Source: a bacterium
Lineage (GTDB): Bacteria > CSSED10-310 > JAJRTK01
Direction: 5' to 3'
DNA length: 23,865 bases
NCBI GenBank assembly: GCA_024278345.1
Contig: JAJRTK010000380.1
Location: 1-23,865 of the forward strand
This document shows positions 246 through 23,865 of the stretch, piece by piece. Position 1 is the first letter of the stretch. Each line of letters starts with the position of its first letter. The notes under the pieces were generated by a model, which was given only the letters and a program-made list of their open reading frames with translations, was not told the DNA's origin and did no database searches. The position numbers were made by a program, and so were the translations under genes.

Positions 246-420
246 CCCGGATTTCTTATCAAATCCCGTCGCGAGGCGGCGCGGGCACGCAGCCGTCGAG
301 TCCGACGACAGGCAGGCACCGGAGGCGTAGTAGAACTACGTTGAGGATGCCGGACCGGGGAGGGCGCTGTTGACTGCGATGATTGCGTTGACGCAGCAGG
401 GATTTGATGAGATTTTCGGG
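246..420. mobile_element. 175-bp MITE-like inverted-repeat element, copy 1
   Basis: This 175-bp segment recurs at 17259-17433 with 12 mismatches and no indels. The ends are 22-bp imperfect inverted repeats (246-267 against 399-420, 18 of 22 matching). The middle is a hairpin, CGTAGT 326-331 with ACTACG 335-340 and loop AGA, whose apex (333) is the centre of the element. The 5-bp direct repeat CTAGA lies at 241-245 and 421-425, as expected for a target-site duplication. The right-hand duplication contains the mglA stop codon (TAG, read on the minus strand at 423-421). No transposase is encoded, so it would need one supplied from elsewhere. Confidence 0.85.
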
Positions 421-1023
421 CTAGAGACGGCTCCCGCTGTGCTGTTTGCGCAGCTCGTTAAGAACCATCTTGGCACAGGCTTTGAGTGTGTCGAAAATAC
501 CGACCCCGCTCAAGGCTACCGCTTCGAACCAGGGCACGTACATGGGATTGAGCATCCGTTGCATCTTCTCCGCCGAGACGATGTTCTTCAGATCCCTCTT
601 GTTGTACTGCATGACATAAGGAACGGTATTGATGTTGTAGCCCTGTTCTTTGAGGTTAACCCGGAGATTTTCCAGAGACTCGATATTCGATTCCATTCTT
701 TCGAGCTGGGAGTCTGCGACAAAGATGATCCCATCGACCCCTTTGAGGATCAGCTTGCGGCTGGCGTTGTAAAAAACCTGCCCGGGAACCGTATAGAGAT
801 GGAATCGAGTTCGGAAACCCCGGATCTGACCAAGCTCCAGCGGCAAGAAATCAAAAAAGAGGGTTCGGTCAGTTTCTGTAGCCAGGGAGATCAACTGCCC
901 CTTCGACTCTGCGGCTGTACGCTCGAAGATGTACTGGAGATTCGTCGTCTTACCGCAGAGGCCGGGGCCATAGTAGACGATTTTACAGTTGATCTCGCGG
1001 GTGGAGTAGTTGATGAACGACAC
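421..1023 (-). CDS. mglA: MglA, Ras-like polarity GTPase
   Basis: Small Ras-like GTPase that in Myxococcus marks the leading pole and drives gliding and type IV pilus motility, switched off by MglB. The 200 residues match the family length (195 in M. xanthus, from memory) and the sequence is very similar along its whole length. The P-loop is GPGLCGKTT at 19-27. The switch II segment is TVPGQ at 78-82, where Thr78 replaces the usual Asp of DxxG, a hallmark of MglA. The base-recognition motif NKRD is at 141-144. The start is GTG, with a GAGGTGG Shine-Dalgarno about 10 bases upstream that overlaps the mglB stop. Only 15 bases separate it from mglB, so the two are one operon. The stop codon lies inside a 5-bp target duplication of the adjacent repeat element. 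The function is confident; motility in this organism is inference. Confidence 0.96.
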   Translation of the reverse strand: MSFINYSTREINCKIVYYGPGLCGKTTNLQYIFERTAAESKGQLISLATETDRTLFFDFLPLELGQIRGFRTRFHLYTVPGQVFYNASRKLILKGVDGIIFVADSQLERMESNIESLENLRVNLKEQGYNINTVPYVMQYNKRDLKNIVSAEKMQRMLNPMYVPWFEAVALSGVGIFDTLKACAKMVLNELRKQHSGSRL

Positions 1024-10660: not shown

Positions 10661-10669
10661 CATTTTTTG

Positions 10670-10821
10670 GGACCTATCAAATTGTCGTGTTTTTGCTTTA
10701 CAATTTTCTTCGCCGAAACGGTGGCACCGGCATCTTGCCGGTGTAGCGCCCTCCGGGTTGCACGGAGCCGGGAAGGAGGCCCGCCCCAGCGGTGAAGTTG
10801 TCAACCGAATCTGATAGGTCT
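10670..10821 (+). mobile_element. 152-bp MITE-like element, copy 1
   Basis: The ends are inverted repeats: GACCTATCAAATT from 10671 and its near-complement ending TGATAGGTC at 10820. The exact direct repeat CCATTTTTTG flanks the element (10660-10669 and 10822-10831), a 10-bp target-site duplication. Inside are CACCGGCATCTTGCCGGTG, a perfect 8-bp hairpin (10725-10743), and a second inverted pair, AAATTGT 10679-10685 with ACAATTT 10700-10706. A related copy in inverse orientation begins at 23726. No transposase is encoded. It lies directly in front of the SbcD-like gene. Confidence 0.85.
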
Positions 10822-11042
10822 CCATTTTTTGTGGGGCCGCCGGTTGTGCCACGTGACAGGTAACCGGAACTACCATACACGATCCCGGTGCGGGATGGTG
10901 AGCAAGGATACAGGTCGCCGCGACCTTAGCCTGCCTCGTCCCGATCCGTCATGAGAGTTCCGTGCCCTGGATGCAGCAGCCCCAAAAATTTAGCTCGTGG
11001 TGCGTCTTGAGGGTTCTTTGCATGGGTTCAGGGCGATGAAAG
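10822..11042. other. Spacer, displaced upstream region of the nuclease operon
   Basis: No gene is supported. CCGGTT 10840-10845 pairs with AACCGG 10862-10867 around a CACGTG palindrome (10850-10855). ATCCCGGTGCGGGAT near 10882 is a short hairpin. The 13-mer CGACCTTAGCCTG at 10921-10933 recurs at 12916-12928. Before the element inserted at 10670, this region probably carried the promoter of the nuclease operon. Confidence 0.4.
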
Positions 11043-11104
11043 GCGAGTGGCGGCGGACGGATTGCCGCCGACGCGAGCGGACCGCAACACTAAGAGAATA
11101 AAGC
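11043..11104 (+). repeat. 62-bp repeat, copy A
   Basis: This segment matches the reverse complement of 12847-12908 at 58 of 62 positions. The first 39 bases are identical. Its core is a hairpin, GGCGGC, nine bases, then GCCGCC. It stands on one side of the M20 peptidase gene, its partner on the other. Confidence 0.88.
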
Positions 11105-11320
11105 TATCGATAACCATCATCTATTCGACATCGAAACCTGTTCGCCAGACGCTCCGTTGCATTTGAAAGGCAAAATCGGCTACTTACGTTGGCCACTAGA
11201 GTGGGTTTCGGATTCCGGGGAGTGGTCAATGTGGAACACGCTCCTAGAGCCTTGTTTTCTTGTGGGGTTGGCTAAACGTTTTCTAGGCTCAGCCGGCGGC
11301 TGACGAAGGAGGTCAGATTC
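11105..11320. other. Upstream region of the M20 peptidase gene
   Basis: No gene is supported. The promoter of the peptidase should lie here, but I see no clear -35/-10 pair. A frame reading FDIET near 11120 has no start codon and ends within about 65 codons. A strong AAGGAGG Shine-Dalgarno at 11307-11313 serves the peptidase. Confidence 0.4.
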
Positions 11321-12736: not shown

Positions 12737-12846
12737 GCATGGAGATGCCAATAAGCTCTGGATTCGAGTGTGACCCCACCGCCCGAGGCCCCGAATGTCG
12801 CCGAAATCTGGGTTGGGACTCCCGCAGGGCAAAATTCGAGTAAATC
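12737..12846. other. Spacer downstream of the M20 gene
   Basis: No gene is supported and no hairpin with a T-tract is seen, so where the peptidase transcript ends is unclear. The 62-bp repeat follows directly. Confidence 0.4.
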
Positions 12847-12908
12847 GCTTTATTTTCTTTGGGTTGCGTTCCGCTCGCGTCGGCGGCAATCCGTCCGCCG
12901 CCACTCGC
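12847..12908 (-). repeat. 62-bp repeat, copy B (inverted)
   Basis: Reverse complement of 11043-11104 with four mismatches and no indels. The hairpin core GGCGGC/GCCGCC is unchanged. The 13-mer CGACCTTAGCCTG follows at 12916-12928, as it precedes copy A at 10921-10933. Confidence 0.88.
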
Positions 12909-13042
12909 TTTTTAACGACCTTAGCCTGTTTGCGGTGCCCCAATAGCATCTCATGAGCTAGATTTAGTGTCCATTTGGATTTCGTGACTTGACGTGTTGA
13001 ATTTTAGATGGGAAAGATTGAGCAATATGGGGTTGTTGGAGT

Positions 13043-13097: not shown

Positions 13098-16000
13098 ATG
13101 AATTTTGTCTTGTATGAAAATCAGTTGGGGCGTGGTCTTGGGGAGTGCTACACCAGAACCCGCGTAACTTCTCTGAAGAGTGGCCTCGGAAAACGGATTC
13201 CATGGGGATTGACGTCCTGTTTGCCGCCGCGGTTCATGGCGGTCATGCTCTTTCTGGTGGCGTCCGTCTCGACGCCCCTGGGATTGGGCAACGCCATGGC
13301 CCAGTTTATTGGTATCACGGGGCATAGTCCATCGGGGTGTCAGTACAGTTCTCTTCAGGTTGCCATCGATCACCTAGAGACGACCCATCCCGGTGCGACG
13401 ATTTACATTTATGATGGAGTGGGGAACAGGATCATTGACGAGAGATTGGTGATCGACGCCGGTGCCACGATGACCATCGCTCGAGGAGATTCCACCTGTC
13501 TGGCTTCAGGTGGTGGCTCTGTCACCATCCAAAACAGCTCCACGGATCCAGGTAGCCTTGGAGGGACCGTGTATGTTTCCAATGGCTCCACCGTCACCTT
13601 TCAGAACCTCAATATCACCCAATCGACCTATACAGTTCTTGCAGGTGGCGTTATTCTCGTTTTCGAGGCCACAACAACTCTGGATGGAACGCTGGTTCGC
13701 GGCGGGACGGCCTCGAATTGGGGCGGTGCCGCCGAAGTATGGGGCACAGGCGCTACACTCACTCTAATCGGCAACGAGACCAGCAAAGCGATCATCGAGG
13801 GCGGCTACACCCAAGGGGCCTCGGGTGGTGGCGGTGGAGTCTTGGTTGGGGCCGGAGGCGTGTTGGTCCTGGGCGATCCGGCGGGAACAGGCTCGGGCTA
13901 CATAGGCAACAGCAAGTACCCCAACTACTCCGACACCGATGGTGGCGGCGTCTACGTGATAGGCTCCACAAGCCGGGTCGAGATGCACAACAGCTCCGCC
14001 ATCTACTACAATGGCTTCACGCTCAGCGGTACGACGCCGACGGTGAATGGCGGGGGCGTCTATTTGGCCGATGGCACGTTGGAGCTGTTCGATTCCTCCT
14101 ACATAGCTTTGAACAAGGCTTCGGCGAATGGAGGGGGAATCTATCAAGCCGCGGGCAGCGTTCGAATGAACAACAATGCTACGATCGGTGGCGCACTGTT
14201 CGCACCAAGGCCCAACACGGCTGACGGCTGGGGCGGAGGCGTTTTTGTTAGCAGCGGTACCTTTGAGATGCTGGATGAGCCTGATGGCGCCACGAGAACC
14301 GAGGTGAGCTACAATTCCGCAGCCGTAGGTGGCGGTATTGCGGCCCAGGGTTCCACGGCGACCATTACCGTTGATGGCGGGGACATTGCGAACAACACTG
14401 CGACTTCCGCGGGTGGTGGAATTGCTGTCTGGGGTTCCGTTGGGAGTCCCCTGTCGATTATCCTTCAATCTGGAAGTACCATAAATAACAACACATCCAC
14501 GCCTGGTGCCGGAGGAGTTTACCTTGTGGGGGCCGACGTAACCTTGGATATCCTTGCCAGCACGGTGGATGGAAATCAGGGGAAGTTGGGAGCGGGAATT
14601 TTTGCATGGGGCGTGGATCCGAATGCACCGTCGTTTCTGAACATCCAGGGAGTCGATCCCGGGACCGGCTATCAGTTTTCCAACGTAACAAACAATATAG
14701 GAAGCGCTGGCGTCGCTGGTGAGACAGCCTGGGGCGGCGGGCTTTACCTCGGATCTAGCGTCACGACCACCATCGATCACGCCGTTTTTTCTGGAAACCA
14801 GGTGAATGCCCTGACGTTTGACAATGCCCGTGGAGGGGCGATTGCCATGGCCGGGGATTCAATCTTGAACATCACCGATTCGGCTTTTGCCTCGAATACG
14901 GCCGGCGATTTTGGCGGCGCCATCTACCACGCCGATGGCGATCTCACGTTGACGGCATTGACCGGGGCTTTTAGCGGCAATCTAAGCACCAATTTCCAAA
15001 CCAACCAGTCGCGGTTGGGAGGGGCAATTTATTTTACGGCCTTGGATGTGGCACCCAGGACGCTTGTCATGAAAGCCCTGAGCTCCCCGGTTCTCTATTT
15101 TGTTGGGAACATTGCTGGACAAGACAATGGCACGTTCGGGAAAGGTGGGGCCATCTACGTAGACAACGGCAGTACCATCGATTCCACGGGGCGGGTTTGG
15201 GCTTACGGAAACAAGGCCGCAATGCATGGGGGCTTTGTGTACGCGGAAAACTCCACCGTGGCGTTCAGAGGCTGGGAGAGCTTCCATCCGTTTGCTGGAG
15301 CCAACGAAGCGGGCGCCGGCGATCCTGGTGATGGCGGTGCCTTCTACGCTCTCAACAGCAGCCTGCAAATCTTGGACGGACTCATCGGGACTCTTTCGGG
15401 CGCAAGCTATCCGAACCTTGCTCAGGACGTCAACGGAACGGGTCTCGGCAATGGAGGCGGTATCTTTGCCGACAATAGCGTGGTCGTGGCCTATAATACC
15501 CTGATTGAGAACAACGAAGCCGACAGGAGTGGCGGCGGGATCTACCTTTCTAACGGCTCCACTCTTCGGATGCGGAGTGATTTCGATGGTTCATTCGGTG
15601 CATTGGTCTGCAATCCGGCGGGCTTGGCGGCCGACCAATACTGTTCCGAGCTTCGTTCGAATGTCACGGATCCCAACAGCCCAACTCGTCTGTACGGTGG
15701 AGGACTTTTTGCCACTGGCGCCACGACGAGCGCCGAGTTTTTTCACACGGCTTTCATGAATAACGAAGCCGAATGGGGCGGGGCCATCGAGGTTCAGGAC
15801 GGAGCCAAAGTACTTGTACGCAACAGCCGTTTTACGGGTAACTTCGGCGGTTTGAACAACAGCACTGTTCATGTCTATCAAAACGGCTCCATCTTCAATG
15901 CGTACCAGAGTACCTTCGCGGGGAACCCCTCCACAGCGATTTCTTATGTGAGTGCCGGACTGGCCGAGCTAACCAATAATATCGTGTGGGGGAATAATAC

Positions 16001-17258
16001 CGGCATCAGTTTCAGCGGAACCTCGTACAACGCGGCGTGCAACGATACTCAAGGCTTTGTCCTGGCCGGAGCAGGGAACGTGAGCATCGATCCGCTGTTC
16101 ACGACAACGGCCCGCGGCGACTTTCATCTCTTGGCAAGTTCCCCAGCGGTGGATGCTTGTTCCACCGGCGAATCCCCCGATCTCGATAATGTCATCCGCC
16201 CTGTCCAGAATTACGACATGGGCGCATTCGAGAATCAAGCGCCCTTGACCTTTACGCCGACGCCGACAAACACGCCGACGTTTACGAATACGCCGACATT
16301 TACCCCGACATTTACCCCGACGTTTACGCCGACGTTCACGAACACGCCGACGTTTACGCCGACGTTCACGAATACTCCGACGAATACGCCGACGTTCACG
16401 CCGACGTTTACGCCGACGTTCACGAACACTCCGACGAATACTCCGACGAATACTCCGACGAATACGCCGACGAACACGCCGACGAACACGCCGACGAACA
16501 CGCCGACGAACACGCCGACGAATACGCCGACGAATACTCCGACGAACACGCCGACGAACACGCCGACGAACACGCCGACGAACACGCCGACGAACACGCC
16601 GACCATTACGAATACGCCGACAAATACACCTACGGGGACTTTGCCTCCGACGAGTACTCCGACGAACACGCCGACGTTTACGAATACGCCGTCATTTACC
16701 CCGACGTTTACGAACACGCCGACGTTTACCCCGACGTTTACGAATACGCCGACGTTTACCCCGACGTTTACAAACACGCCGACGTTTACGAATACGCCGA
16801 CGTTTACCCCGACGTTTACGAACACGCCGACGTTTACCCCGACGATTACGAATACCCCGACAAACACACCAACGGGGACTTTGCCCCCGACGAGTACTCC
16901 GACGAACACGCCGACGAATACCCCAACGGGCACACTGTTGCCGACGAATACGCCGACGTTGACGAATACGCCGACGAATACGCCGACCGGTACTCTTTCT
17001 CCGAGTCAAACGCCGACTATGACGAGTACGGAGACTTCGACAGCCACAGAAACGTCAACGCCAACGAATACGGCAACGCCCACGGCCACAGGGACACCAA
17101 CGCCAACGAGTACGGCAACGCCCACAGCGACAAGCTCATCGACTCCTACAGCACCGAGAACGATACCGGCTCCCCGAGGTAATAGTTTTGTCCTCATGTT
17201 GCTGTTGGCCGGTTTATTCCTTGTGATTCGGCGTCGCCGAGCTCAGAGGAGCCAATAA
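13098..17258 (+). CDS. Pmp-like beta-helix surface protein with Thr/Pro stalk and C-terminal anchor
   Basis: A large (1386 residues) exported protein. The long N-terminus has an extended signal peptide: Arg/Lys-rich 20-46, hydrophobic 47-65, AMA-Q cleavage site at 66-69. The passenger (about 69-1045) carries some seventeen G-G-[AG]-[IVLF] motifs, such as GGAIYHADG and GGGVYLADG, with FSGN or FTGN motifs. This is the pattern of chlamydial polymorphic outer-membrane proteins and right-handed beta-helices. A low-complexity Thr/Pro/Asn region (about 1046-1357) is followed by IPAPRGNS, a hydrophobic helix [14 protein letters not shown] and the basic tail RRRRAQRSQ. No C-terminal beta-barrel is present, so this is not a classical autotransporter. 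Likely a surface adhesin or filament anchored through a CTERM-like signal. A weak TAAGGA lies about 10 bases before the ATG. The stop lies in a target duplication of the downstream element. Confidence 0.88.
16245..17160 (+). repeat. Thr/Pro coding tandem repeat (12-bp NTPT and 30-bp variants)
   Basis: Within the surface-protein gene, ACGCCGACGAACACG-type units of 12 bp encode NTPT. About fifteen stand in a row between roughly 16425 and 16600. Longer [10 protein letters not shown] units lie on both sides. A block encoding [20 protein letters not shown] occurs twice (near 16609 and 16849). Synonymous third positions vary (AAC/AAT, ACG/ACT) while residues stay fixed, so the protein sequence is maintained. 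Tandem structure makes it prone to length change. Confidence 0.93.
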
Positions 17259-17433
17259 CCCGGATTTCTCATCAAATCCCGTCGCGAGGCGGCGCAGGCG
17301 CGCAGCCGGCGAGTCCGACGACAGGCAGGCGCCGGAGGCGTAGTAGAACTACGTTGAGGACGCCTGACCGGGGAGGACGCTGTTGGCTGCGATGATTGCG
17401 TTGACGCAGCAGGGATTTGGTGAGATTTCCTGG
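17259..17433. mobile_element. 175-bp MITE-like inverted-repeat element, copy 2
   Basis: This is the same length as copy 1 at 246-420, with 12 substitutions and no indels. The terminal inverted repeats are 17259-17280 and 17412-17433 (18 of 22). The central hairpin is CGTAGT 17339-17344 with ACTACG 17348-17353. The flanking direct repeat AATAA lies at 17254-17258 and 17434-17438. The left repeat holds the TAA stop codon of the surface protein, so the element starts one base after the coding region. Relative to the neighbouring stop, its orientation is opposite to that of copy 1. Confidence 0.87.
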
Positions 17434-17459
17434 AATAAAGGCTTTCCCCAGAGTGGTTT

Positions 17460-17696
17460 CTACCCATCGCGATGGCCACGCCATTCATAGTGGTGGTAGC
17501 CATCGTGATCCACTTCGCAGTAGACTTCGTCGTAGCCACTTTCAAGCTGATGATAGTGGTAGTACTGGAGGTCTTCCAGTGCTATGTAGAGCGCGGTTGC
17601 GGCGACGGCGGTGACGACTTGGCCAACAATCCGGTGACATCCTGAGCTGCCGAATAGAGCCAGCACGAGTAAGATCATCGCTAGTGTTCGTTTCAT
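17460..17696 (-). CDS. Small His/Tyr/Asp-rich lipoprotein
   Basis: No family is recognised. The protein has 78 residues. Residues 1-19 form a lipoprotein signal peptide (MKRTLAMILLVLALFGSSG) with Cys20 as the expected lipidation site; Ser at -3 is not the commonest residue there. A short hydrophobic helix (about 24-40) and a tail rich in His, Tyr, Asp and Glu follow (YYHYHQLESGYDEVYCEVDH, then GYHHYEWRGHRDG). The tail could bind metal, but this is inference. The ATG at 17696 has GGAGGAG about five bases upstream; an upstream frame reaching 17810 is less likely. It lies convergent to the surface-protein gene, with the 175-bp element between. Confidence 0.78.
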   Translation of the reverse strand: MKRTLAMILLVLALFGSSGCHRIVGQVVTAVAATALYIALEDLQYYHYHQLESGYDEVYCEVDHDGYHHYEWRGHRDG

Positions 17697-18265: not shown

Positions 18266-18307
18266 ACTAGGCTCTCCTTGGAAGATGGGAAGCAACAGGC
18301 ATTTCGG

Positions 18308-18555
18308 GCCACCCACGTAAGGCGGGACATTTCGAGGATTGTGGAATTGCCGGCGTCCGGGCAACGCCTCGCTCCGCTTGGCGGTTGTCCGGGGACTCCG
18401 GCCCCGGTCCCCGGCAGGGCTTTGCCCTGCACCCACCAGGGAGCTCGCTCCCTGGACCCACATTCATGTACGACGCGTTGCGTCTTTGTTTTGGCGGGTG
18501 TCCCGGCTTACGTTGATACCCTCCTTTTTCTCTGTCCCGCCTTAGGTGGATACCC
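18308..18555. repeat. Repeat-dense spacer with a thrice-used 23-base motif
   Basis: No gene is supported between 18266 and 18628. A 23-base motif beginning TGTCCCGCCTTA and followed by a GT-G-TACCC-like end occurs at 18499-18521 and 18533-18555 on the plus strand, and at 18308-18330 on the minus strand. The inverted and direct copies enclose the hairpin array. It may be a composite repeat element about 250 bp long. Confidence 0.6.
18389..18455 (-). repeat. Tandem hairpin array, copy 2
   Basis: Three neighbouring stems are present: CCGGGGAC 18389-18396 with 18407-18414, GCAGGGC 18414-18420 with 18424-18430 (loop TTT), and CCAGGGAGC 18436-18444 with 18447-18455 (loop TC). Read on the minus strand it has the same order of a GGAGC stem, GTGGGT linker and further stems as the array at 1-93. 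It stands downstream of the SPOR gene in that gene's reading direction. Confidence 0.75.
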
Positions 18556-23597: not shown

Positions 23598-23725
23598 GGT
23601 TTGGCTTCGGTCGACCCTTCAAAGGATATTCAGGCGGTTCCGTTGAATTGCGGTGCGGGTGAAAGTCTGGGCTGGCGGTGTTGAGGAGGAGGCCAGGGGG
23701 TAGAGTTTTCCTGGTGGTTCGGAAA

Positions 23726-23865
23726 GGACCTATCAGATCCGGTTGACAAGTCCACGCACGAAAGGAACCCACCGTTCAATTCCGTGAATCCCGTCCAGCC
23801 CGCCACCGGCAAGATGCCGGTGCCACCAGGGCGGCGCCGCGGAGTGTAAAGCAAAAACGCGGGGA
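23726..23865 (-). mobile_element. MITE-like element, copy 2 (cut by window end)
   Basis: This copy begins with GGACCTATCAGATCCGGTTG, the outer end seen in reverse at 10798-10821. It holds the same CACCGGCA hairpin (23804-23811 with 23815-23822) and TGTAAAGCAAAAA near the end, in the same order as the reverse complement of copy 1. Central stretches have diverged. The left flank is 23716-23725 and the right edge lies just outside the window, so the target duplication cannot be read. Confidence 0.75.

Follow-up and report, generated by a model that had tools for sequence, protein, structure and literature searches.

RUP of Streptococcus pneumoniae, a high-copy intergenic MITE of 107 bp, is moved by IS630-Spn1 (PMC2229807). 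MITEAba12 is derived from ISAba12, is flanked by 9-bp duplications, folds with a predicted energy of about -24 to -27 kcal/mol and is active in the laboratory (PMC6382973). Among IS1380-family ISs, IS1247 gives a 5-bp duplication (PMC3281130). For ISPsp10, the insertion lies before a TAA, and this stop completes the transposase gene (PMC4133298).

The stretch of DNA analysed here, referred to throughout as the window (23,865 nt), carries two copies of an element that shares features with each of these systems. It is best explained, with a probability of roughly 80%, as a non-autonomous palindromic MITE of IS1380 type, whose adjacency to stop codons is a by-product of target preference and purifying selection.

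Copies of the element in the window and in its genome

Copy 2 of the MITE (17259–17433, plus strand) is a 175 bp member of subfamily A with terminal inverted repeats (TIRs) at both ends, and the whole element forms one hairpin. The TIRs, CCCGGATTTCTCATCAAATCCC (left) and CCAGGAAATCTCACCAAATCCC, are imperfect inverted repeats. The left target duplication, AATAA, is at 17254–17258 (plus strand) and holds the TAA stop (17256–17258) of a surface-type protein gene; the right one (17434–17438, plus strand) repeats it perfectly. This arrangement was correctly described, in both letters and positions, by the first-pass annotation. Copy 1 (246–420, plus strand) also belongs to subfamily A, is likewise 175 bp long and is 93% identical to copy 2. 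Its target duplications, CTAGA, are found at 241–245 and 421–425 (both plus strand), with nt 421–423 forming, on the minus strand, the TAG that ends an MglA-like gene. The two copies share an orientation, and the genes whose stops they share sit on opposite sides, confirming the earlier remark that the copies are opposite in orientation relative to the gene.

The surface-type gene (13098–17258, plus strand) encodes a long, beta-helix-like protein with NTPT repeats and has no Pfam match. Its low-complexity NTPT/FTPT-type repeats are built of 12-bp units (window positions 16230–17009) and precede a C-terminal hydrophobic and basic tail. A small convergent gene (17460–17678, minus strand), with an N terminus that looks lipoprotein-like by eye and no Pfam match, has its stop 21 bp past the right duplication of copy 2. 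The gene ending at copy 1 (421–1023, minus strand) specifies an MglA/Arf-Ras-like small GTPase and adjoins a Roadblock/LC7 gene (the two covering 421–1521), a pairing characteristic of polarity or motility systems in bacteria. Four further high-copy interspersed repeat families occur in the window, each matching 33–49 of about 100 fetched loci. Copies of these other repeats are at 1–141; 10665–10828 and 23722–23865; 11007–11113 and 12814–12922; and 18303–18524, and several contigs terminate at such copies.

The window's own assembly (6.06 Mb in 550 contigs, 87.9% complete) was surveyed for further copies. A DNA search returned roughly 24 close copies and another 15 or so at approximately 70% identity. 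The TIR pattern CCCGGANNTCTCATCAC, allowing up to two mismatches, gave 208 matches compared to 5 for the reversed control, equivalent to about 100 or more elements in several subfamilies. Clustering of paired elements gave subfamily A (n = 14, mostly 175 bp), subfamily B (n = 15, mostly 173–178 bp), and a set of smaller groups and singletons. The element has the properties of a MITE: it is well under the usual limit of about 500 bp, has no assigned gene, transposase or otherwise, carries both terminal inverted repeats and a target-site duplication, and is present in high copy number with homogeneous lengths (classes of 175 bp and 176–178 bp). No convincing copy was found in the 60 relatives searched, the nearest of which belong only to the same phylum, and the two-ended element pattern gave no match in the named genome collection or in viral contigs. 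Rfam returned no known RNA family for the element.

IS1380-type ends and target duplications

An IS1380-family transposase is represented in the same genome by a fragment (PF13701, E 4e-23; C239:223-522), which is followed by the TIR CCCGAATATCTCATGAA and then by CTAAA. L162, a complete PF13701 element of a different genome, has the TIRs CCCGGATATTTCATAAA, and relatives of the fragment, from many phyla, have ends of the form CCCG(G/C)ATTTCTCA(T/C)C. In three complete elements (L190, L202 and L242), 15–16 of 18 positions match the MITE end. Both features expected of an IS1380-derived element are present, i.e., shared terminal repeats and a TA-rich target duplication of 4–5 bp, which in the window's genome takes the form of a 5-bp TYNRA. 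The assignment of the element to the IS1380 type is well supported, and an IS1380-family transposase probably mobilised it.

The assembly, at 87.9% completeness and in 550 contigs, yielded no intact autonomous partner, only the transposase fragment. A PF01609-type transposase was considered as a partner and rejected, being a single fragment without a link to the element. The sequence at C275:8706, considered as a candidate for the other end of the IS1380 remnant, has about 40 bp in common with the C239 end before running into another repeat.

In 14 complete IS1380-type elements the exact 4-bp duplications are all YTAR (CTAG, TTAG, CTAA or TTAA). These elements (L187, L190, L191, L193, L202, L203, L211, L235, L236, L241-L244 and L162) come from many phyla. 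A YTAR duplication places TAA or TAG against the TIR, and in 5 of the 19 IS1380-type elements checked the TIR-adjacent stop closes an open frame longer than 100 codons. Duplications of 5 bp were also seen in two elements (L166 and L201). It counts against the IS1380 account that the closest complete elements mostly have 4-bp duplications, whereas those of the MITEs are 5 bp.

In the window's genome, 19 two-ended copies sit between exact 5-bp duplications, indicating transposition rather than chance. A palindromic, mostly intergenic, high-copy repeat might also be a REP/BIME-type or other palindromic sequence that is not moved by a cut-and-paste transposase. These 19 copies contradict that interpretation, as do the terminal repeats matching IS1380 elements and the length of 175 bp, compared to 20–40 bp for REPs (PMC3733652), making it highly improbable.

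Stop codons, gene ends and the hairpin

The symmetrised consensus of the 19 exact duplications, T-Y-N-R-A, is palindromic, and 16 of them contain a stop word on one or other strand. A position-weight matrix alone predicts stop words in 69% of duplications, compared to 18% from base composition, so that sequence preference accounts for most of their stop-like appearance. In this GC-rich genome, YTAR words occur at 5.1 per kb outside genes and at 1.8 per kb inside, a roughly threefold difference in density. Approximately 79% of equivalent 5-mers fall inside genes, but only 10 of 28 rebuilt empty sites lie within a called ORF (several of these with low scores, or close to a gene end or the edge of a contig), which shows that gene bodies are avoided. 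This avoidance would arise most simply from selection.

Genes were called with a simple home-made coding-model caller, trained on fetched contigs totalling about 1.12 Mb. Among 102 insertions, nine (both window copies among them) have the stop of a called gene fully inside the duplication, compared to 0.9 expected from uniform non-disrupting placement and 3.6 from motif-weighted placement. The strictest null, which used identical 5-mers at non-disrupting positions, left 85 usable insertions, with 7 overlaps observed and 4.05 expected (P 0.12). When the two window copies were left out, because they had been picked for their stop adjacency, 5 were observed against 3.7 expected (P 0.31). Elements neighbour gene 3′ and 5′ ends about equally: of the gene ends within 150 bp, 36 are 3′ and 38 are 5′, a 3′ share of 49% (null 47%), and a preference for gene 3′ ends was rejected for lack of an excess.

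An alternative is stop-codon targeting, in which the transposition machinery spares genes by recognising their ends, e.g., through 3′-end DNA structure, terminating ribosomes or a stop word in its context. Both window copies do lie on stops, the genome-wide count exceeds the motif-weighted expectation, and 7 of 45 two-sided insertions overlap a stop (binomial P 0.006, with the ascertained window copies still included). However, more than 90% of copies are off stops, 5′ ends are as frequent beside elements as 3′ ends, and the excess under the same-5-mer null is small with or without the window copies, so this explanation appears unlikely. As a general rule, stop-codon targeting was dropped on the basis of the copy survey and the nulls. 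The first-pass annotation had noted that two of two copies abut stops and had proposed stop-adjacent insertion as a way of sparing genes. The MITE, its duplication and the sparing of the gene at the stop hold up, and the adjacency is true of the window; it does not extend to the genome, and a preference for insertion at stops is not supported by the survey. The point estimate nevertheless exceeds expectation under each null, which counts against the by-product reading, and stops may be favoured modestly beyond the target motif. With YTAR/TYNRA targets, a TAA or TAG adjoins the TIR at most insertions of the IS1380-family transposases and MITEs that use them, and it is conceivable, but unlikely, that this stop-word specificity is an evolved safe-harbour strategy, placing elements on host stop codons more often than base composition and selection against gene damage would explain. 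A literature search returned nothing relevant on a CTAG/YTAR rule for IS1380 or on insertions overlapping stop codons.

A second suggestion of the annotation was that the element acts as a 3′-end structure. In its fuller form, this would make it a domesticated element, kept because it serves as a putative transcription end or mRNA stabiliser for adjacent genes. The plus strand is predicted to fold as a single long, very strong hairpin (-104 kcal/mol, z -9.5), and copy 2 is flanked by a convergent pair of genes. The two strands of the hairpin are unequal, with 12 G-U pairs compared to one A-C mismatch on the plus strand of the subfamily A consensus. The palindrome is common to both subfamilies, which differ by 10 double compensatory changes, 5 one-sided changes and 8 broken pairs. 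Several observations run the other way. The minus strand folds less strongly (-79 kcal/mol, z -5.9), and it is this strand of copy 1 that the MglA-like transcript receives. There is no terminator-like tail, as a search for intrinsic terminators (a hairpin plus a T run) found none between 16900 and 18000, and placement is without a 3′ bias. Substitutions at paired positions within subfamily A led to G-U in 17 cases and to A-C in 18, and two changes were compensatory, so that copies decay regardless of pairing. With no bias to retained pairs, selected RNA structure in individual copies was rejected, and the failure to keep pairs argues against a selected 3′-end role. The palindrome kept between subfamilies would then reflect a constraint on the amplifying source element and not on resident copies. 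The suggested 3′-end role is not upheld by these indirect data, which give no evidence of a selected function of this kind in resident copies, and domestication is improbable.

The preferred reading, an IS1380-type MITE with a simple target preference, suggests the following course. An IS1380-family transposase would join the element to a short TA-rich palindromic target, with repair duplicating 5 bp. On one strand, such targets would frequently read TAA, TAG or TGA, and copies that break genes would be lost. As the related YTAR words are also denser outside genes, the surviving copies would be mostly intergenic and would at times coincide with the stop of a gene. In such cases the gene keeps both stop and protein because the duplication includes the stop.

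Comparison with known systems

The findings link IS1380-type transposases to a large radiation of MITEs, apparently not described before, in a bacterial phylum that has been poorly sampled, and they show how the appearance of stop-codon targeting can arise from a short TA-rich target motif alone. They also provide a testable rule for a broad group of IS1380 elements, i.e., that a YTAR target leaves a stop word adjoining the TIR.

The closest known systems are the IS1380-family ISs (PF13701), such as IS1247 and ISEcp1. They have a CCCGGAT-NTCTCATC-like TIR and short TA-rich duplications, and a transposase fragment with such a TIR is present in the same genome. The window element differs from them in being 175 bp long and geneless, with an interior that has no match to theirs, and in having 5-bp duplications where most of the complete relatives found have 4 bp. 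RUP is similar in being tied to an IS by its TIRs and in having TA-containing targets, as well as in its copy number and intergenic location, but it belongs with another IS family and has another sequence, whereas the window element is GC-rich and forms one long hairpin. MITEAba12 is likewise a MITE that arose from an IS, and it duplicates target sites that are AT-rich; its longer duplications, weak fold and laboratory activity set it apart. ISPsp10 resembles the window copies in that the target supplies a stop codon beside the element. There, the stop serves the transposase gene, whereas the window element is geneless and the stop is that of the host gene.
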